Translations under genes and position numbers: made by a program | The notes under the pieces: model-generated | What the model was told of the DNA's origin: nothing | Databases searched by the model: none | Seen by the model: the letters and a program-made list of their open reading frames with translations, nothing else | In this document: positions 6,034 through 15,884 of the stretch, one piece after another | Numbering within the stretch: position 1 is the first letter of the stretch | Layout: each line of letters opens with the position of its first letter | Assembly (NCBI GenBank): GCA_947305795.1 | Contig: CAMZEK010000005.1 | Span: 28,643-92,642, forward strand | Length of the DNA: 64,000 nucleotides | Origin: an uncultured Bacteroidales bacterium | GTDB lineage: Bacteria; Bacteroidota; Bacteroidia; Bacteroidales; F082 | Direction: 5' to 3'

Positions 6034-6305
6034 TCATCCGTTTCCGAATGCGGCTGCAAAAGTACAACTAATTTTGTTACGCGCAAGCATTTTTCTCTAT
6101 TTTTTTCAAAAAAAGTCCTTCGACACCGAAAAAACTTGTATTTGTTTGTTATTATACTGAGAAACTAATACTGCACCAAAGCCTTTTTCAGACTCTCTCG
6201 GACAGATGGTACTCCCCTGTCGATGGAGCTTTAGGGACGGCAGGTGATGCGCGACCGTGTGGCATTACATTTCCATGCAGCGTATTAGTTATTGTGATTT
6301 TTTTG

Positions 6306-6313
6306 TATTTTTG
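6306..6313 (+). promoter_or_regulatory. Bacteroidales -7 promoter element (TATTTTTG) upstream of first DUF1016 gene
   Basis: TAnnTTTG consensus, 23 nt before the ATG at 6336. Confidence 0.5.
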
Positions 6314-6335
6314 CGATTCACAAAAGAATGGAAAC

Positions 6336-7462
6336 ATGACAGAAGTAGATTTGACTCGCAGTTACGATTCGTTGTATTCCGATACTTGTCTAATCATTGA
6401 GGAAGCGCGTAATTATGCCTATCGTGCCGTCAATGTTGCTTTGACGCTCCGCAACTGGCAACTTGGCGAGCGTATTGCCCGAGAAAACTTTGATGGTGCG
6501 GAGCGGAATATGGAAAGAAAGTTGTCGCAATGCTCTCAACAGACCTTACCAGCAAATATGGCAAAGGGTTTGATAAAAGCACTTTATATAGGTATATCCT
6601 CTTTTACCGAATGTTTCCAAAGATAGTGGCCTCAGTGCGGCCACAATTCCAAATAGTTGACGCAGTGAGTCAACAATCCGAAAATATGGCCGCAGTGCGG
6701 CCACAATTCGAGATTTTGGCCTCAGCAAGTCAAAAATTGCTTCCGTGGACCCACTATCGTGAACTCATCCGCGTGGAAGATGCTGAAGCCAGAAGCTGGT
6801 ACGAGCAGGAAGCCCTGCGGGAAATGTGGAGCACCCGCACATTGCACCGCAACATCTCGTCGCAATACTACTATCGTCTGATGAAGTCCGGAAACAAAGA
6901 GAAGGTGACTGATGAGATGCACCGTTTGACACAATCCATGCAACAAGACAAACTGGAATTTATGAAGAATCCTGTGGTGGCAGAGTTTCTTGGATTGCAA
7001 CCCAATGCCGATTTTACTGAAACAGAACTGGAAGGCAGTATCATCAGCCATCTGCAAAGCTTTATCATGGAGTTGGGCAAGGGATTCGCTTTTGTGGCCC
7101 GGCAAAAGCATATCCGCACGGATATGGGTGACTTTTATATTGACTTGGTGTTCTACAATTATATCTTGAAGTGCTTCTTTTTGATTGATTTGAAGACACA
7201 GCAAATCACCCATCAGGATGTTGGACAAATGGATATGTATGTAAGGATGTATGACCAACTGATGCGTACGGAGGGCAACAATCCCACCATTGGCCTGTTG
7301 CTTTGCTCAGAAACCAGCGAAGATATGGCGCGATACAGCATCCTGCATGATAGTGAACAATTGTTCCAAGCAAAATATCTCACCTACTTGCCCACTGAGG
7401 AGCAATTGCGCCAAGAGATAGAACTGCAAAAACAAGTCTTTTTGGAACAGAGGAGCAAATAA
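6336..7462 (+). pseudogene. DUF1016 / YhcG-type PD-(D/E)XK nuclease, interrupted by a frameshift near 6504-6506
   Basis: Frame ending ...RNWQLGERIARENFDGAE continues in another frame as AEYGKKVVAMLSTDLTSKYGKGFDKSTLYRYILFYRMFP... to the C-terminal nuclease domain (DFYIDLVFYN...FFLIDLKTQQITHQDVGQMDMYVRMYD). Confidence 0.75.
6626..6733 (+). repeat. Tandem ~30-bp repeats, each with an internal inverted repeat, inside the DUF1016 linker
   Basis: Units start at ~6626, 6656, 6686, 6716. GTGGCC-7-GGCCAC, GTTGAC-7-GTCAAC, TGGCCGCA-g-TGCGGCCA. Translates as IVASVRPQFQ/IVDAVSQQSE/NMAAVRPQFE/ILASASQKLL. Confidence 0.75.
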
Positions 7463-7495: not shown

Positions 7496-7518
7496 TTGTA
7501 CTTTTGCAAACGAAAAAC
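7496..7518 (+). promoter_or_regulatory. Promoter region (copy 1 of TTGTACTTTTGCAAACGAAAAAC)
   Basis: Contains -7-like TACTTTTG; identical 23-mer at 9830-9852. Confidence 0.65.
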
Positions 7519-7526
7519 CGAACAAT

Positions 7527-8588
7527 ATGCCTGCAAACAAAAACGCTGTAACACGCTACTACATCCTCGACAAGCTGTTGGCCAATCGCTATCACCATTA
7601 TTCTACTGAGGATTTGGTAAGACTTGTCAATGAGGAGTTGACAGAAATGAATCAAGAGCCTGTCAGTCGTCGAACCATCGAACTTGACCTTAATTATATT
7701 GAAAACGAAGGGCCTTTTTTGGCGGAGATAGAACACTATCAGGTTGATGATGTCAGCCAGCGAACCCTCAAGACCATCAAGAAAAGCTGCCACCGCTATG
7801 CTGACCCATCGTTTTCCATATTTACGCAGAAGCTTACTGACGACGAGAAACACCTGCTTGGAGAGGCTTTCACACTTCTCGGGCAATTTGACGGTCTGTC
7901 CGATCTTGCAGGCTTGGAAAGGCTGAGGGAAAGCCTCAAAGTAAAAACCGACCGCCAGATAGTGTCATTCACAAAGAATCCTTTGGAAGGCAAGAACCTG
8001 CTGGGTGAATTGTTCACGGCAATCTCACAGAAACAGGTGGTGGAATTGCATTACCATCGGTTTGACACGCCTGATGAGGACCGCAAAACCGTTGTGCATC
8101 CTTACCTGCTTAAAGAATACAACCGCCGTTGGTATCTTATCGTTGCCGCCGACAATGATGGCAAAATACTGTCGTTTGCGCTCGACCGTATCGATAAGTT
8201 TGTCCCTTTGCCTTCTCGTAGTTATAAGGAATACGATGGCGACCTCAACGAGCGCTTTGAGGACATCATCGGGGTGACACTCATCGACGGCAATCCGTTG
8301 CAGACCATCATGTTCTGGGTGAGTGATTTTTCCAAGGATTATGTGGCCACCAAACCCTTGCATGAGTCTCAGCGGCATTACAAAGGGGAAAGAGAAATGG
8401 AATTGCGCCAACAATACCCAAAGCTCGAAGGAGGCGCATTCTTCTCCATTGACTGCATAGAGAACTATGAGCTTATCCGTGAATTGTCCTCTTTTGGAAA
8501 AGACCTGTTGGTTCTCTCGCCAGCCGACATCCAGCAGAAGGTACGCGACCGCGTTGCGGCACAATTCCATGCATATCAGATGCTGTAA
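7527..8588 (+). CDS. WYL-domain transcriptional regulator
   Basis: 353 aa; N-terminal HTH-like (VSRRTIELDLNYIENEG) and WYL-type core (VVELHYHRFDTPDEDRKTVVHPYLLKEYNRRWYLIVAAD). Confidence 0.88.
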   Translation: MPANKNAVTRYYILDKLLANRYHHYSTEDLVRLVNEELTEMNQEPVSRRTIELDLNYIENEGPFLAEIEHYQVDDVSQRTLKTIKKSCHRYADPSFSIFTQKLTDDEKHLLGEAFTLLGQFDGLSDLAGLERLRESLKVKTDRQIVSFTKNPLEGKNLLGELFTAISQKQVVELHYHRFDTPDEDRKTVVHPYLLKEYNRRWYLIVAADNDGKILSFALDRIDKFVPLPSRSYKEYDGDLNERFEDIIGVTLIDGNPLQTIMFWVSDFSKDYVATKPLHESQRHYKGEREMELRQQYPKLEGGAFFSIDCIENYELIRELSSFGKDLLVLSPADIQQKVRDRVAAQFHAYQML

Positions 8589-8630: not shown

Positions 8631-9815
8631 ATGAGCGACAAACCGACATTCGTATCCCGTGACATGATGACCGCCGACGAGGGCTATGTGCAATGGATGG
8701 CAGACATCAAGCAACGTTTCCGCCAAAGCCAAGTCAAGGCGGCGGTTCGAGTGAACACTGCCATGCTTGAGTTTTATTGGAGCTTGGGAAGAGACATGGT
8801 GGAACTACGGGCAGAAAGCAAATGGGGCAGCGGTTTCTTCGATCAGTTGAGCCTTGATTTGAGGACTGCTTTTCCCGAAGAAACGGGTTTCTCAGTGACC
8901 AACCTCAAGTATATGAAGCGTTGGTATGCCTTTTATAATGAGAGAGTTGCAAATCGTCAACGACTCGTTGACGAAATTAGTGCTGTTCAAAGTGATGAAC
9001 CAAATGTTGTAATTCGTCACCAAGCTGGTGACGAATTAGATATCACAATTGGTCAACGACTCGTTGACGAAAAAGGCCAACGACTCGTTGACCAATTAGA
9101 GATGCCTGAGCTTTTTGGACGAGTGCCATGGGGACAGCATATCGATATTATTTCAAGATGTGAGACATTAGATGAAGCTCTTTTCTATGTTCAGCAGGTA
9201 GTGGACGGAGGGTGGTCGCGCCCCAGGCTTAATGCCAATATTGACAAACATTTGTATCAATCTCAAGGGGCAGCCGTGACCAACTTTGAGCACACGCTTC
9301 CGGCGCCACAGAGCCAGTTGGCCAAGGAGATACTGAAAGACCCTTATCATTTCGGCTTCCTCTCGATGAGCGAGGAGTACGAGGAGAAAGACTTGGAGGA
9401 TGCGCTTGTTTCGAATGTCACGCGCTTCTTGATGGAGTTGGGCAAGGGCTTTTCGTATGTGGGGCGACAGATGGAGTTGCAGATGCCTGGCGGACAGACC
9501 TTCTTCCCCGATTTGTTGTTCTATCACATCCCGCAGCACCGCTATGTCGTCATTGAGCTGAAGGTGGTGAAGTACATCCCCGAGTTTGCCGGCAAGCTGA
9601 ATTTCTACGTTACCGCCGTTGACGAGCTGCTGCGTGGCGAGGGCGACAATCCCACCGTGGGACTGATCATCTGCAAATCGACCGACAAGACCGTTGTGGA
9701 ATGGTCGTTGCGCGACATCAACAAGCCGCTTGGCGTATCCACCTACCAGCTTGAACAGGTGGTGGAGCGCACGGTGAGGGAACTGGAACTGAAAAAAGAA
9801 AATTTGCGAAAATAG
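8631..9815 (+). CDS. DUF1016 / YhcG-family PD-(D/E)XK nuclease domain protein
   Basis: N-terminal FYWSLGRDMVELRAESKWGSGFFDQLSLDLRTAFPEETGFSVTNLKYMKRWYAFY; C-terminal LMELGKGFSYVGRQ...FFPDLLFYHIPQHRYVVIELKVVKYIPEFAGKLNFYV. Confidence 0.92.
   Translation: MSDKPTFVSRDMMTADEGYVQWMADIKQRFRQSQVKAAVRVNTAMLEFYWSLGRDMVELRAESKWGSGFFDQLSLDLRTAFPEETGFSVTNLKYMKRWYAFYNERVANRQRLVDEISAVQSDEPNVVIRHQAGDELDITIGQRLVDEKGQRLVDQLEMPELFGRVPWGQHIDIISRCETLDEALFYVQQVVDGGWSRPRLNANIDKHLYQSQGAAVTNFEHTLPAPQSQLAKEILKDPYHFGFLSMSEEYEEKDLEDALVSNVTRFLMELGKGFSYVGRQMELQMPGGQTFFPDLLFYHIPQHRYVVIELKVVKYIPEFAGKLNFYVTAVDELLRGEGDNPTVGLIICKSTDKTVVEWSLRDINKPLGVSTYQLEQVVERTVRELELKKENLRK
8954..9093 (+). repeat. Array of four short palindromes inside the DUF1016 linker
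   Basis: TCGTCAACGA-c-TCGTTGACGA (8954-8974); AATTCGTCACCA-agc-TGGTGACGAATT (9011-9037); GTCAACGA-c-TCGTTGAC (9052-9068); GGCCAACGA-c-TCGTTGACC (9075-9093, one mismatch). Confidence 0.85.
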
Positions 9816-9829
9816 GTTGCGCGGCAGGG

Positions 9830-9852
9830 TTGTACTTTTGCAAACGAAAAAC
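9830..9852 (+). promoter_or_regulatory. Promoter region (copy 2 of TTGTACTTTTGCAAACGAAAAAC)
   Basis: Identical 23-mer to 7496-7518; upstream of the 817-aa kinase gene. Confidence 0.65.
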
Positions 9853-9900: not shown

Positions 9901-12354
9901 ATGCAGAACGCACAGAACAACTACACAGAAGAAACCCTCGGAGTCATATTTGACAAAATTGACACACTCGTTGACAAATATCGTAACTATGTAAACGAGC
10001 ATTGCCCAAAGACTCTTGATAGCTATGTTGAAAAAGGTGAAGTTTTTCAAGTCTTGACACCATTTGACCCCGATGGAAGTGCAGACGAGCAATTGATAAT
10101 AACCTTGTATAAAGAGGTAACTGGAAATAATGCTGATGTGCAAATCGTAGAGGCATTGTCTCAATATGCAGAAAAGTTCTATGATAAAGCACTCTCAGAG
10201 GAGGAAATGTCTTTTCTGTGTGAGAATTTCTCAGCAGTGATTACTTATGAGTTTCTCGTTCGAGATCAATGGTTATCAGGATGTTCTGGTCAACATATTT
10301 CTGAAGAACGCATTAGGCTTGTCAAAGAGCATGTAAAGCCCGAAAAGGGGGCAAGAATATTCATTGCCGACACAGAATACTGTGATCTTGCTGTTCTCTT
10401 TCCAGATTGTATTATATCTGGTTTTACAGGCATGAACTATGATCAAAAGAAAGTATGGGCTCTGGGACAAATTCGTCTTTTTGCCGCAGGCATTCACTCT
10501 GAAATTGTTTCAGGTGAGGAAGTAAATGACGAATACTCATATACGTTGCCTGCAAAGGGTACTGTAGACATGGTTATTTTCCGCGTCAATGAGCAAAAAT
10601 ATGCTGCTCAAAAATTATTCGGAACAGAATGCAAGGATTTAGAAGCATTATATGACCTTCTAAAGCCAAACGGGAAAATGCTGTTTTTCTCTGAGTTTAT
10701 ATCAGAAATGGCTGGAATGAAAGCTGAAATGTATGAGGCACCCATCATTGATTTTCGCGTTCGTAGAACTAAAGAAAAAGCTATTTCTTCTATTGTTGCA
10801 TACAAGGATAAGGGCTTTTTTGGCAACAATTATATTATGCTTGCATTATGCAAAGCTGAAAATTGCAAAGTCTACATTAAGGACGAATTGAAGTCCAGGT
10901 CTAAATATATTAATGCCGATGAACTAGATTCTGAGATTTTATGGCCTAGTTACTATTGGACTAATCAACCAGCGGATGGTAATCCATTATCTTCTATTGT
11001 AAAACACCAACAGGTAAGACTCTTAAAGGAAAAAGAGCTTGCAGATTTTGTTAAGGGAGAAGGATGGATCCTACACGAAAAGGCAAAGAACATGCCATTA
11101 GTTCTGCCGGACATGCTTAGAGACAGTTACAAAGATGCAAATCTTTGTAACAGAATTGTCAACATTGTTAGTGACCCTGGTATTGAGGAAGAACAGGCAA
11201 AACTATGTGTGGCAAAAGAGCCTTATGTTCTTCTGAGTAATAGTACAGAGGACTTTAGAGTTGGGTATGCAACAGAAGTACCTGATGGAGGCATCGCCTA
11301 CATGAAAGCTTGTTGCATAGTTCCGCTGGACGGAATTGATGTTCGTTACATTGCAGCTTTACTGTTTGAGCCATCTGTCAAAGAACAAATTTTGACAATT
11401 TGTGATGGGCATAACATTAACCTTGCCTTGCCCTTGGTTATGGACAAAATCATCGTACCTAATCATGATGAAAAAGAACGTTTAGCTTTTTTGGCTGAAG
11501 CAAACTATGAGGCATTGCTATCTTCACAAGAAGAGTTGAAACAAGAACATAATAATTATATCAAAGCAGTTCGAATGCGTAAACATGCTCTAACTCAATC
11601 CTTATCTTCTATAGGAGCTAAATTCAATGCTTTGAATAAATGTCGAATTCGCCAAAATGGAGAATTGTCTGATGATAATGTTATTAATCCATTACGAGGG
11701 ACTACCGTAAAAGAAATATTTGAATTTCTTTCTACAAGAATAGAAGAGATGATGCCTGTACTGGAACATATTGCAGACGTAGAATACTCATTCTTGAACC
11801 CTGAATCTATTGACCCAGAGGAATTCATAGAAAGTTACATCAAAAAAGAAGAAAAAGGCTGGCTGAATTTCAAGCCAATCGTATCATGGAAGGAAGGCAA
11901 CAATAAGGGGTTGAAAGTCACCAAAGATAAAGATGGTAATGTTATTAAAGAAAAGATATCACTGATCACTTTTAAGTTCCCAAAAGATGCATTAGAAAAA
12001 ATATTCGACAATATTCTTTCCAATGCAAAGGCTTATGCTTTTACAGAAGATAATCGAAAAGACTATCAATTGAAATTTTCGTGGCGCACTGATGGAGTGT
12101 CATTGATTATCGAGATTGAAAACAATGGAACGCCCATACCAGAGAATCGAGACACTGCCTCACTGCTTGAATATGGTGTATCAACAGCTCTTCACCAAGA
12201 CGGGCATAACGGTATTGGTTGTAACGAAATTAAGGATATAATGACCCGATATAATGGAAGAGTGGAGATAGTATCTACACCAAAAGAAGAATACACAGTC
12301 AAATATGTTTTGACGTTTAGTAATGCATTTATTTTTAGACAACAACAAGAATAG
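9901..12354 (+). CDS. Degenerate type I methylase/specificity-like (HsdM/HsdS-like) N-terminal region fused to a C-terminal histidine-kinase ATPase
   Basis: N-half resembles N6-methylase fold (KPEKGARIFIADTEYCDLAVLFPDCIISGF...GTVDMVIFRVNEQKY...DLLKPNGKMLFF) without an NPPY-type motif; mid region resembles an HsdS half (RYIAALLFEPSVKEQILTI...LALPLVMDKIIVPNHDEKERLAFLAEANYEAL). H-box-like RKHALTQSLSSIGAKFNAL (H562), N-box DNILSNAKAYAF, G-box GHNGIG. Confidence 0.7.
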   Translation: MQNAQNNYTEETLGVIFDKIDTLVDKYRNYVNEHCPKTLDSYVEKGEVFQVLTPFDPDGSADEQLIITLYKEVTGNNADVQIVEALSQYAEKFYDKALSEEEMSFLCENFSAVITYEFLVRDQWLSGCSGQHISEERIRLVKEHVKPEKGARIFIADTEYCDLAVLFPDCIISGFTGMNYDQKKVWALGQIRLFAAGIHSEIVSGEEVNDEYSYTLPAKGTVDMVIFRVNEQKYAAQKLFGTECKDLEALYDLLKPNGKMLFFSEFISEMAGMKAEMYEAPIIDFRVRRTKEKAISSIVAYKDKGFFGNNYIMLALCKAENCKVYIKDELKSRSKYINADELDSEILWPSYYWTNQPADGNPLSSIVKHQQVRLLKEKELADFVKGEGWILHEKAKNMPLVLPDMLRDSYKDANLCNRIVNIVSDPGIEEEQAKLCVAKEPYVLLSNSTEDFRVGYATEVPDGGIAYMKACCIVPLDGIDVRYIAALLFEPSVKEQILTICDGHNINLALPLVMDKIIVPNHDEKERLAFLAEANYEALLSSQEELKQEHNNYIKAVRMRKHALTQSLSSIGAKFNALNKCRIRQNGELSDDNVINPLRGTTVKEIFEFLSTRIEEMMPVLEHIADVEYSFLNPESIDPEEFIESYIKKEEKGWLNFKPIVSWKEGNNKGLKVTKDKDGNVIKEKISLITFKFPKDALEKIFDNILSNAKAYAFTEDNRKDYQLKFSWRTDGVSLIIEIENNGTPIPENRDTASLLEYGVSTALHQDGHNGIGCNEIKDIMTRYNGRVEIVSTPKEEYTVKYVLTFSNAFIFRQQQE

Positions 12355-12356
12355 AT

Positions 12357-13673
12357 ATGGAAAATCATAGCTTTATTCAAGTTCTTTGGGTTGAAGACGA
12401 CCCAGAAGTATTAGGAAGCTATCCAGATGAAGCTTCTCAAGATGGTTTGCAACTAGTTTCGAAACAATGCTGGGATGATGCCAAAGCAGCTTTGGAAAGT
12501 GAGTTTAATAGGTGGTCTGCTATTATACTTGATGCTAAATGCAAATACCATCGGGATAGTGCAGACAATGCAGTCGAGTTTTTGCGTGAAGCGTTGGATG
12601 ACATTTCTACTATTTGTGAGAAAAAAGGCCGAATTATCCCTTGGTACGTCTTAACCGCTGGCTCCGAAACAGAGGTCTCTGACTCAATTAACGACAAACG
12701 CGAGAAATGGGATTCTGATTGGACTGAAAAAAAACACAAGAAGTTCTATTACAAGGGTACCGACAGAGAAGAATTATATAAACGGATCAAGGCCCATGCC
12801 CAAAAATCAAGTAGATTTCAGATACAGGAAATGTATCGAGAGACATATGATCAATTGTCTAACTTCAATGACGATGTCTGTGAAGACATTTTGACCATTA
12901 TAGAAGCCATTCACTTTCCTAACTCACACCAGGATTTCAATCCAAAGTACTTCTATAACCCACTTAGAAAGGCCTTGGAGCAAATCTTTAGGTCTTTGGG
13001 GAAAGCAAACATCATTCCAGATACGTTTTTCTCTAATGGCAGGGTTAATTTTAATCAATGTTTTATGTTTTTAATAGGCAACGAAGCAGTAATACTAGGA
13101 TATAAGCATGAGGAAGGAAGAATAATTCCAAAACATATACAAAACATGATGTCTTTGATTATGGATTTGGGAAATTCGAACTCCCATTCCTCAGTCGAAT
13201 TAAGCGAAGAAGAAATTCAAAATTACGACAATCAAATTAAAACCATAGGCGGCAATTCAAGGCTTTTGGTTTTTAGCATTGCACTCCAGTTCTGCGAGAT
13301 ACTTCAATGGATGAATAAGTATTTAAAAAACCATCCAGATAAAGAAGAAAATCGTAAAAAGTGGGTGAAGTTGGATAAGACAGAGCAAGAGGGAGTAGAT
13401 TCATCAGGAACAAATGTTAAGGCACCTCCGTTACAGTCTAAAGAACTTGAAAATGGTAAATATTATGAAGGTATAATAGTAGAGGTCGAAAATCATTTTG
13501 GAACTTTTTTGAATGTAAAATGTGAATTATATCCGTTCCCTCTCCAAATTAAGCCAAGACATAATAATCTAATAAAGGACAAAGTGGTAACATTCAAGGC
13601 AATCCAAGAGCCAAACAAGAAAGATCCCAGCAAACCTTTTTGGATTGCCACGGATGTTCGTCGAAAAGAATGA
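12357..13673 (+). CDS. Response-regulator receiver (REC) domain protein with HEPN-like middle region and OB/cold-shock-like C-terminus
   Basis: REC residues present: VEDD, D59 (IILDAKC), T100 (YVLTAG), K133 (FYYKG). Middle region RKALEQIFRSLG...IMDLGNSNSHSS is HEPN-like. C-term GKYYEGIIVEVENHFGTFLNVKCE... is OB-like. Starts 2 nt after the kinase stop. Confidence 0.65.
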   Translation: MENHSFIQVLWVEDDPEVLGSYPDEASQDGLQLVSKQCWDDAKAALESEFNRWSAIILDAKCKYHRDSADNAVEFLREALDDISTICEKKGRIIPWYVLTAGSETEVSDSINDKREKWDSDWTEKKHKKFYYKGTDREELYKRIKAHAQKSSRFQIQEMYRETYDQLSNFNDDVCEDILTIIEAIHFPNSHQDFNPKYFYNPLRKALEQIFRSLGKANIIPDTFFSNGRVNFNQCFMFLIGNEAVILGYKHEEGRIIPKHIQNMMSLIMDLGNSNSHSSVELSEEEIQNYDNQIKTIGGNSRLLVFSIALQFCEILQWMNKYLKNHPDKEENRKKWVKLDKTEQEGVDSSGTNVKAPPLQSKELENGKYYEGIIVEVENHFGTFLNVKCELYPFPLQIKPRHNNLIKDKVVTFKAIQEPNKKDPSKPFWIATDVRRKE

Positions 13674-13713
13674 GTGTGGCTTATATTAAGGTGTTTGTTT
13701 ATTAAATACAAAC

Positions 13714-13750
13714 AAAAGGGTTGTGCAGGTTTGTACAGCCCTTTTGTTTT
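13714..13750 (+). terminator. Rho-independent terminator after the REC gene
   Basis: AAAAGGGTTGT-gcaggtttgt-ACAGCCCTTTT followed by T-rich tract. Confidence 0.7.
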
Positions 13751-13826
13751 TGCCGCTGCTTTCTAAATCAGCGAAAATTGGTTTCGCACCACAGTCATAC
13801 TTTTGCCATCGAAAACGAAAACAACG

Positions 13827-15884
13827 ATGGAGAAAGAAGGTTTTACAATTGACCCGACCAACCTCGAGCAGCAAAAGGCTTTCGACCTTGTGGCTAACAC
13901 CAACACCAGTTTGTTCATTACAGGTAAGGCCGGTACGGGTAAAACCACCTTTGTCAAGAGTATTCAGGAGCAAATCAAAAAGAGCTTTTTGGTGCTGGCT
14001 CCAACTGGCATTGCCGCCATGAATGTCGGGGGACAAACCATCCACTCGTTTTTCGGCCTTCCTTTTGAGGCAATAGGACCGGAAACAAAGATGGAAGTTT
14101 CTTTGGAGAAGCGCAAGACCCTTGAACATATCGATACCATCATTATCGATGAAGCCTCTATGGTGCGTTGCGATTGGGTGGACGGCATCGACCGCTTCCT
14201 CCGCGCTTTGATGCACACCCATCTTCCTTTTGGCGGTAAGCAAGTGGTGTTTGTCGGCGATCTTTTTCAGTTGCCCCCAGTGGTGAGACGCGGAAGTGCC
14301 GACGATATGATGCTGTGTTATATGTACGGCAACGGTACTCCATATTTTTACAAGGCAAACGTGATGAAGCGGATGAATCTGCCCAAGATAGAGTTCCAAA
14401 AGGTGTACCGTCAAGAGGATTCGGAGTTTTTGGACATTCTGGATAGGATGCGCTTGGGGGAGAATACGGAAAATGACTTGGATGTCCTTAACCGTCATGT
14501 GAGCTCCGATGATAAAGTGGGCGATTACTCAGTTATTCTGACTGCCCGCGTGAATACCGCAGACGGCATCAATGATCAGAAACTGAATGAAATCGAGTCG
14601 GAGGAGTTTTGCTATGAGGGCGAGATTTCGGGCAAGTTCAAGTCTCAGGATGTTCCTGTCCCGATAACGTTGAAGCTTAAGGTCGGCGCTCAGGTCATTT
14701 TCTGCCGCAACGACTATCCTCGTGGCGTTGTGAACGGCACTATTGCCAAAGTTGTGGCTTTGGAGGACGATACAATCAAGGTCGCCTTGAAGGATGGAGA
14801 AGAAATCGAGGTGGAAAAGATGACATGGGAGACTAAGGAAAGCGTTTATGATGAAACGACCAAAACAGTGAAGTCCGAAGTCGTCGGATCCTTCACGCAA
14901 TACCCGCTGAAATTGGCCTGGGCCATCACGATACACAAATCCCAAGGCATGACTTTTGACCGGATGCACTTCGACCTTACTCGCGGAACTTTTGCAGCGG
15001 GGCAGTCATACGTGGCCATCAGCCGTATGCGCTCATTGGATGGATTGACGTTGAGCAGAAAGATTTTCAAAAACGACATTTTGCAGAATGCGGAAATCAA
15101 GGCTTTCGCCAACTCGTTCAACGATGTGGCAATGATTGACGACGAGCTGTCGTTTGGCGAAGAATTCTACAAGCATCTCGCCAAAAAGGACTATGACAAT
15201 GCGGCCAGGATGTGCCTGCTTCACTCGATGGAAAAGATGAAGTTGGGCGACTATCGCAGTGCTGCACTCTTGGCCAAGAAGATGTTTGATGTGATGCTTG
15301 ATGACAAGTGCCTGAAAGGGATGACAAACGATATTCCGCTGCTGAAGGATTGTAGCACGTCATGCCATTTCCTCAACGCTGTAGTATGTCTATATGGCGA
15401 TCATTTAGAGGAAGCCATCGGTTATGCCAATATGGTGCTTGACCGCAGGCCTTGCCTCGAAGCCATGTTTATCAAGGGAAAAGCCTTGTTGGCATTAAGC
15501 CGCTACGATGAAGCAATGGAAATGGCCCAGCTGATTCGTATTGCCGGCAAAGAGTCGGTTGACAAAGTTGCCATCGACAAGAAACAATATCTCTTTGAAG
15601 CTGAACTCAATGAACAGTTAGGGAACACCAACATTGACACGTGCAAACAACTGCTGAAACTCTGCCCTGAATATCTCCTTGCCTATGTGATGCTGCGGAA
15701 AGAAGCCATATTGGAAGGACTGGCTTTAGAGGTGCTTGAAGGTGCGGATGAAAACGCTCTTGTGTCGGCTTTCAATAATGAAGCAGTTTCTGACGATGAT
15801 TTCAAGGCGATGCTATACGAAGCCGATAAGACCAGCGTAACATTCAAGTTGTTTGCGCTAAGGGCCCGGAAAATCAAAATGTAA
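13827..15884 (+). CDS. PIF1-like / RecD-type superfamily 1 helicase with C-terminal TPR-like extension
   Basis: Walker A GKAGTGKTT, Walker B IIIDEASM, GDLFQLPPV, LAWAITIHKSQGMTF, YVAISRM; helical repeat-like C-terminal ~230 aa. Confidence 0.88.
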   Translation: MEKEGFTIDPTNLEQQKAFDLVANTNTSLFITGKAGTGKTTFVKSIQEQIKKSFLVLAPTGIAAMNVGGQTIHSFFGLPFEAIGPETKMEVSLEKRKTLEHIDTIIIDEASMVRCDWVDGIDRFLRALMHTHLPFGGKQVVFVGDLFQLPPVVRRGSADDMMLCYMYGNGTPYFYKANVMKRMNLPKIEFQKVYRQEDSEFLDILDRMRLGENTENDLDVLNRHVSSDDKVGDYSVILTARVNTADGINDQKLNEIESEEFCYEGEISGKFKSQDVPVPITLKLKVGAQVIFCRNDYPRGVVNGTIAKVVALEDDTIKVALKDGEEIEVEKMTWETKESVYDETTKTVKSEVVGSFTQYPLKLAWAITIHKSQGMTFDRMHFDLTRGTFAAGQSYVAISRMRSLDGLTLSRKIFKNDILQNAEIKAFANSFNDVAMIDDELSFGEEFYKHLAKKDYDNAARMCLLHSMEKMKLGDYRSAALLAKKMFDVMLDDKCLKGMTNDIPLLKDCSTSCHFLNAVVCLYGDHLEEAIGYANMVLDRRPCLEAMFIKGKALLALSRYDEAMEMAQLIRIAGKESVDKVAIDKKQYLFEAELNEQLGNTNIDTCKQLLKLCPEYLLAYVMLRKEAILEGLALEVLEGADENALVSAFNNEAVSDDDFKAMLYEADKTSVTFKLFALRARKIKM

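Follow-up and report, generated by a model that had tools for sequence, protein, structure and literature searches.

A candidate defence two-component system of Bacteroidota with a type I methyltransferase-like sensor kinase

Introduction

In the antiphage system Detocs a receiver is fused to an effector and no DNA-binding domain is present. Detocs is a three-gene, ATP-degrading defence family (PMC11249213). PrrC is an effector whose gene lies within a type I hsd operon, and PrrC and PARIS both fire upon inhibition of restriction-modification (RM) (PMC3710099, PMC12707154). Here we describe a pair of adjacent genes, KIN and RR, in a 64,000-nucleotide stretch of DNA (the window) from an uncultured Bacteroidales bacterium (GenBank contig CAMZEK010000005.1, positions 28,643 to 92,642). 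KIN is a histidine kinase whose N-terminal half resembles a type I methyltransferase, and RR is a response regulator lacking a detectable DNA-binding output domain. Since their Bacteroidota relatives sit inside RM operons, the pair probably serves antiphage defence as a sensor arm that has not been described before. Our favoured but tentative interpretation, in which we place slightly less than even confidence, is that of a cytoplasmic defence two-component system in which a methyltransferase-mimic sensor kinase drives a nucleic-acid-directed effector.

KIN-RR shares with Detocs the combination of a kinase with a receiver-effector without a DNA-binding domain, but consists of two genes, has an HsdM/HsdS-mimic sensor and carries a helical plus oligonucleotide-binding (OB) output instead of PNP. 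A preliminary description of this DNA had likened the pair to Detocs; its defence context is borne out, but membership of Detocs is rejected because there are two genes, no Pfam PNP domain and no PADLOC match. Like PrrC of EcoprrI, KIN-RR is part of hsd operons in the majority of its loci; a link to PARIS is that in sister genomes AriA/NsnB-like ATPases fill the operator-controlled slot that KIN-RR has in the window. Unlike PrrC and PARIS, KIN-RR has neither an ABC or AAA15 ATPase nor a canonical HEPN motif, and sensing is predicted to be done by the methyltransferase-like histidine kinase. A kinase pair and a WYL regulator beside immune operons are also known from CapK-CapS and CapW/BrxR; CapK, however, phosphorylates a serine of a STAS-HTH repressor, whereas KIN-RR is predicted to relay phosphate from His to Asp and lacks a DNA-binding partner. 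By analogy, KIN-RR would operate as defensive two-component systems do, and it may also share the working of RM guardians. Against PADLOC models the two proteins give weak scores at most, and no Pfam, NCBIfam or PADLOC model exists for the pair as such. The full-text literature, as covered here with subscription papers and preprints mostly left out, describes no kinase/response-regulator pair tied to type I RM. A DefensePredictor figure legend names predicted HATPase and REC domains, but its wording does not permit identification.

Results

Architecture of the pair

The two open reading frames (ORFs) are separated by 2 nt, as initially described, and comprise the following parts, all on the forward strand.

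9901..12354, +: KIN, pseudo-type-I-methyltransferase histidine kinase, 817 aa
10216..10935, +: HsdM-like methyltransferase region of KIN, approximately residues 106-345 (family profile versus HsdM 3lkd, 3.9e-40)
11098..11463, +: HsdS half-subunit (target recognition domain, TRD)-like region of KIN, approximately residues 400-521 (HsdS 5ybb_D/3okg, 2.7e-10)
11464..11652, +: unbroken KIN helix 522-584 in the structure model, the TRD-following helix running into the dimerisation and histidine phosphotransfer (DHp) helix
11584..11586, +: codon of H562 of KIN, the phosphoacceptor histidine
11968..12315, +: HATPase (catalytic and ATP-binding, CA) domain of KIN with N708, G743, G771 and G773
12357..13673, +: RR, response regulator, 438 aa
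12357..12776, +: receiver (REC) domain of RR; D59 codon 12531-12533
12804..13370, +: helical output domain of RR with conserved R204, E208 and H277; H277 codon 13185-13187
13455..13664, +: OB / S1-cold-shock-like tail of RR

Searched alone, the KIN of the window yields HATPase as the sole detected domain. Its homologues combine N6_Mtase (to 1.8e-45) and Methylase_S (to 3.8e-6) with HATPase_c on a single polypeptide, and the family profile matches solved structures of HsdM (3.9e-40), HsdS (2.7e-10) and histidine kinases (9.6e-13) in that chain order. The structure model of the window KIN likewise matches the M subunit (methyltransferase) of the type I-like PacII as well as the kinases YycG and HK853. 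An N6_Mtase fold joined to a specificity domain, as in type I methyltransferases, is therefore present, in agreement with the earlier proposal of a methylase joined to a specificity module and devoid of the NPPY motif. The catalytic (N/D/S)PP(F/Y/W) motif is missing from the window KIN, where the local sequence reads VIFRVNEQ; in a motif survey NPP(F/Y) was retained in 47/47 neighbouring HsdMs vs 22/61 KINs. The clade of the window has lost the S-adenosylmethionine (SAM) loop besides, and most KINs outside it have an altered yet conserved SAM-loop motif, NPFAGLASFG. KIN thus keeps the fold and domain order of HsdM/HsdS, but its catalytic motif is mostly lost, it has a single recognition domain, a kinase has been added and the resident specificity is not followed (see below). 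Sequence comparison supports a degenerate type I methylase plus one HsdS-like recognition domain as the N-terminal half, with the catalytic motif lost in the window.

Compared with its relative in locus L033, the window KIN is 85% identical in the methylase-like region and 90% in residues 346-545, vs 57-64% in the kinase part, and the overall dN/dS of 0.22 indicates purifying selection. Being strongly constrained although its motifs are lost, the methylase-like half therefore appears to be kept for a purpose other than catalysis. Residues 1-105 are by far the most variable part of KIN (~30% mean identity, compared with an average of 69% for the CA domain) and show no match to the local HsdM; they may form an arms-race surface.

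The C-terminal half has the hallmarks of a two-component kinase, an H-box histidine and an HATPase with N and G boxes. HATPase_c covers residues 696-802 (E 1.9e-6, above the curated cut-off), with N704/N708, G743 and G771/G773 located as first described. H562, N708, G743, G771 and G773 are invariant in 61/61 full-length homologues, and the H-box register is of the HisKA type (RHEIAGPLRNI in locus L008). In the model, at moderate confidence, residues 522-584 form one uninterrupted helix that starts where the TRD-like part ends and continues past H562.

RR has an intact receiver, with the acidic pair, the acceptor aspartate, the Thr/Ser and the Lys all in place: D14, T/S100 and K133 are each found in 66/67 homologues and D59 in 67/67. 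Its model has a receiver fold that matches receivers in the PDB with TM-scores of up to 0.77. In the helical domain that follows, R204 (65/67), E208 (66/67) and H277 (67/67) are conserved, the last of these ending the GNSNSH motif at residues 272-277 that had suggested a HEPN domain. The motif is real, but an active HEPN RNase is rejected: the catalytic motif of these enzymes is defined as Rx4-6H (PMC3710099) and occurs at H277 in only 2/67 homologues. Similarity of the output domain to DUF4145 is marginal (3/43 homologues, best E 0.014), an hhalign comparison with the HsdR DUF4145 domain is suggestive in that R, E and H fall into register, but its score is weak (E 0.0065, probability 5.8), and the output-domain profile finds nothing credible in the PDB and matches no HEPN structure. 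The helical domain is thus at most HEPN/DUF4145-like. The OB or cold-shock-like tail is visible as beta strands at 369-436 in the model and is hit by S1CSD-TOTE-2 in 9/43 homologues (best 7.2e-6) and by OB_RNB in 7/43. A minority of homologues, the shortest of ~295 aa, lack this tail, so that the receiver and helical domain constitute the core of RR. Foldseek also pointed to a resemblance to PorX, which we do not accept because RR has no Pfam PglZ domain and full-length TM-scores are low (0.24).

Distribution and operon context

KIN and RR occur together in 65 distinct loci, all in Bacteroidota except for one unannotated 'phage' record. KIN precedes RR on one strand in 65/65 loci, with gaps mostly of -14 to +12 nt, a two-gene pattern far beyond chance. 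RR is present in 6/396 genomes of a phylum sample and 11/174 genomes of a family sample, and among 85,462 species genomes scanned there were 52 loci, all from Bacteroidota. The search patterns were themselves derived from Bacteroidota sequences, and absence from other phyla is therefore unproven.

Within ~10 kb of the pair we find a WYL gene in 50 of the 65 loci, hsdM in 45, hsdM, hsdS and hsdR together in 29, and YhcG in 9. The usual gene order is WYL-KIN-RR-hsdM-hsdS-cargo-hsdR, and KIN-RR is in effect the recurrent 'N-6 DNA methylase plus hypothetical protein' of Bacteroidota hsd operons, annotated as a second methylase. Being encoded with a type I RM system, the mark of an RM guardian, is thus a property of the family (hsdM near 45/65) and not of the window; ~11/65 loci, the window included, are without neighbouring hsd genes in a way not explained by a contig end. 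This survey of homologues, which the preliminary description had proposed, shows that relatives belong to operons for type I RM and that the copy in the window occupies a WYL-YhcG slot, a context that the description did not contain.

The pair is also carried by a mobilizable plasmid of Myroides and by an element from human faeces whose record calls it a phage. Scans of viral contigs with KIN and with a subset of RR gave no relatives; tblastn of KIN against plasmids gave no match, while RR did match plasmids. The 'phage' record (L009, MT835483.1) has a 726-aa ORF, TraG/VirD4 coupling-protein-like by eye, beside its WYL-KIN-RR-hsd set, and may therefore be a conjugative element.

Coevolution and the resident specificity

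Similarities of the KIN DHp and CA domains and the RR receiver correlate at 0.93-0.97, and those of the KIN methylase and TRD parts at 0.92, vs only ~0.7 across the two blocks. Mantel tests of the KIN N-terminal, methylase or TRD regions against the local HsdM/HsdS were negative (r ~0), the DHp-HsdM comparison alone reaching p 0.02 (partial r 0.13). TRD-like regions can be 75-90% identical in KINs whose adjoining HsdS share ~24% identity, and near-identical KINs adjoin HsdMs of ~27% identity. As judged from these sequence correlations, KIN and RR are cognate and the methylase-TRD half is one sensing unit, unmatched to the resident specificity. Given the high KIN-RR correlation and the lack of any with the local HsdM/HsdS, KIN therefore does not read that specificity, as expected if the mimic reports something more general, and the original idea that it senses a methylation state written by the resident system finds no support.

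These data bear on two other explanations. KIN could be a strict sensor of DNA or methylation state, its TRD binding one fixed sequence and its degenerate methylase pocket reporting the methylation of that sequence. Such a role would fit the methylase- and TRD-like regions being the best conserved between the window and L033 and evolving as one block, the SAM-loop motif of most KINs beyond the window clade and the NPPF/Y-like residues in 22/61. The constancy of the TRD beside divergent HsdS, the absence of correlation with HsdS or HsdM, and the loss of both SAM and catalytic motifs in the window clade make it unlikely. Equally unlikely in our estimation is a regulatory subunit of type I restriction, in which KIN-RR would dock on the resident HsdM/HsdS/HsdR and tune restriction, for example for alleviation under stress. 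Membership of hsd operons in most loci, HsdM/HsdS-like surfaces that could co-assemble and the faint likeness of RR to the DUF4145 domain of HsdR all speak for it, but the cassette does not covary with the hsd genes (r ~0), near-identical KINs accompany very different HsdMs, and ~11 loci, the window's among them, have no hsd genes alongside.

A defence-cargo slot with a shared promoter

In the window, KIN-RR is preceded by a WYL-YhcG module and followed by a PIF1-like gene.

7499..7516, +: promoter element TACTTTTGCAAACGAAAA of the Bacteroidota -7 type TAnnTTTG, 5' of the WYL gene
7527..8588, +: WYL-domain transcription regulator, 353 aa (WYL 3e-13, WCX 1.1e-5)
8634..9815, +: YhcG-like (DUF1016) PDDEXK nuclease, 393 aa counted from the ATG and accessory to the front module (YhcG_C 1.6e-53; PADLOC PDC-S02 2.4e-132)
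9806..9822, +: palindromic operator-like site GCGAAAATAGGTTGCGC, 5' of KIN
9833..9850, +: promoter element TACTTTTGCAAACGAAAA 5' of KIN, identical to the copy 5' of the WYL gene
13710..13749, +: intrinsic terminator-like hairpin at the end of the KIN-RR transcript (-25.5 kcal/mol, z -5.96)
13771..13787, +: palindromic operator-like site GCGAAAATTGGTTTCGC, 5' of the PIF1-like gene
13798..13815, +: promoter element TACTTTTGCCATCGAAAA, 5' of the PIF1-like gene
13830..15884, +: PIF1-like helicase (PIF1 4e-36)

The WYL-YhcG block is present at essentially full length in at least 15 of 100 genomes of the genus, and the window block is 93% identical at the DNA level to that of genome G505. The cargo behind it is exchanged and can consist of a retron-type reverse transcriptase (PADLOC RT-Protease_XI 4e-109) next to a NERD/UvrD helicase, of AAA ATPases resembling NsnB/AriA, of a DISARM helicase resembling DrmD, of KIN-RR, or of KIN-RR-hsdMSR. 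The last arrangement is that of L040, from the genus of the window, in which a WYL-YhcG block sharing 93% identity with that of the window is followed by a diverged KIN-RR and then hsdMSR; this locus is a bridge between the defence-slot and hsd-operon contexts.

The promoter element TACTTTTGCNNNCGAAAA has three copies in the 64 kb at up to one mismatch, in front of WYL, KIN and PIF1, against a chance expectation of 0.00. The palindrome GCGAAAATNGGTTTCGC precedes it 5' of KIN and of PIF1 (two sites in the window, 0.22 expected), with a weaker version 5' of WYL, and the palindrome-promoter arrangement lies 5' of the cargo in most relatives, including retron, AAA-ATPase and KIN cargo. The palindrome is a putative WYL operator that would place KIN-RR in the WYL regulon. 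For WYL repressors that control immune operons, ssDNA or DNA damage is the signal (as cited in PMC13373217). An operator and promoter of the kind common to the defence cargo also stand before PIF1-like genes (window 13771-13815, and L032, L033, L136 and L141), and for this reason the PIF1-like helicase probably belongs to that regulon too.

The shared operator raises the alternative that phosphorylated RR governs YhcG or PIF1 instead of acting itself, both genes adjoining the pair in the window; it is very improbable, as YhcG is found in only 9/65 loci and both genes are missing from the surroundings of several stand-alone pairs. An ordinary stress two-component system hitch-hiking in islands would account for the standard phosphorelay residues but hardly for the methylase-mimic sensor, the membership of type I RM operons, the defence-cargo slot and the shared operator, and is the least credible of all.

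Several side observations concern this slot. Five genomes of the genus have a retron-type reverse transcriptase gene behind WYL-YhcG, in some of them accompanied by a NERD/UvrD-helicase gene; it was scanned in L131, where it encodes 491 aa, and the ORFs of L129, L133, L137 and L138 look similar by eye. In L139 (4362-9036) the module is followed by a DrmD-like helicase and then a 520-aa actin/Hsp70-like protein. Upstream in the window, a further YhcG/DUF1016 nuclease gene (6294-7462) is split over two frames (6294-6626 and 6530-7462) and apparently frameshifted.

Discussion

If KIN-RR is the defence two-component system that we favour, its working could be pictured as follows. The coiled-coil helix that follows the recognition domain would have been turned into the paired helices that are phosphorylated in kinases of the HisKA type, and the KIN dimer would for that reason imitate the M2S1 core of a methyltransferase. 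The ligand would most likely be phage-associated DNA or a phage anti-restriction factor directed against type I methyltransferases, and less likely the SAM level. Its binding would move the clamp, shift the shared helix and thereby promote autophosphorylation at H562, from which the phosphate is predicted to pass to D59 of RR. In phosphorylated RR the helical-OB output may then be freed and attack nucleic acid, probably RNA, which would make it an effector of dormancy or abortive infection, and the WYL regulator would induce the operon.

A more specific version, which we regard as possible but doubtful, has KIN-RR as a stand-alone decoy: a counterfeit type I methyltransferase would sense phage DNA or anti-restriction proteins and fire the His-Asp relay into a nucleic-acid-directed suicide effector, the whole having spread through Bacteroidota RM operons as an exchangeable cassette. 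The decoy is a reasonable idea by analogy, because RM guardians of like logic exist in PrrC of EcoprrI and in PARIS.

Several points weigh against the defence interpretation. The confidence of the KIN model is only moderate (pLDDT 64.9, pTM 0.39), and the HEPN identity of the RR output is marginal, with the catalytic HEPN motif absent from its sequence. Some family members may still methylate, since 22/61 KINs keep a catalytic-looking motif. Finally, the genome from which the window comes (2.56 Mb, 80% complete) has other type I RM loci, which makes action in trans on an RM system possible. One of its contigs carries two HsdM genes side by side (L043:7538-10584, G000 contig 18).

Should the defence interpretation be correct, type I restriction-modification, among the commonest antiphage machineries, would be coupled to two-component signalling through a methyltransferase-mimic sensor, and H562, D59 and H277 would provide mutable handles for studying how a bacterium perceives an assault on its restriction enzymes.

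Sensors other than KIN may exist for the RR family, since in L041 (6303-9419) the kinase beside an RR homologue is a 367-aa HATPase protein in which the methylase half is absent, and a 290-aa partner accompanies them. Further RR homologues, in L039 and L042, lie near HARE-HTH/GIY-YIG proteins (there with stop codons in RR) or near a 463-aa protein of unknown family.

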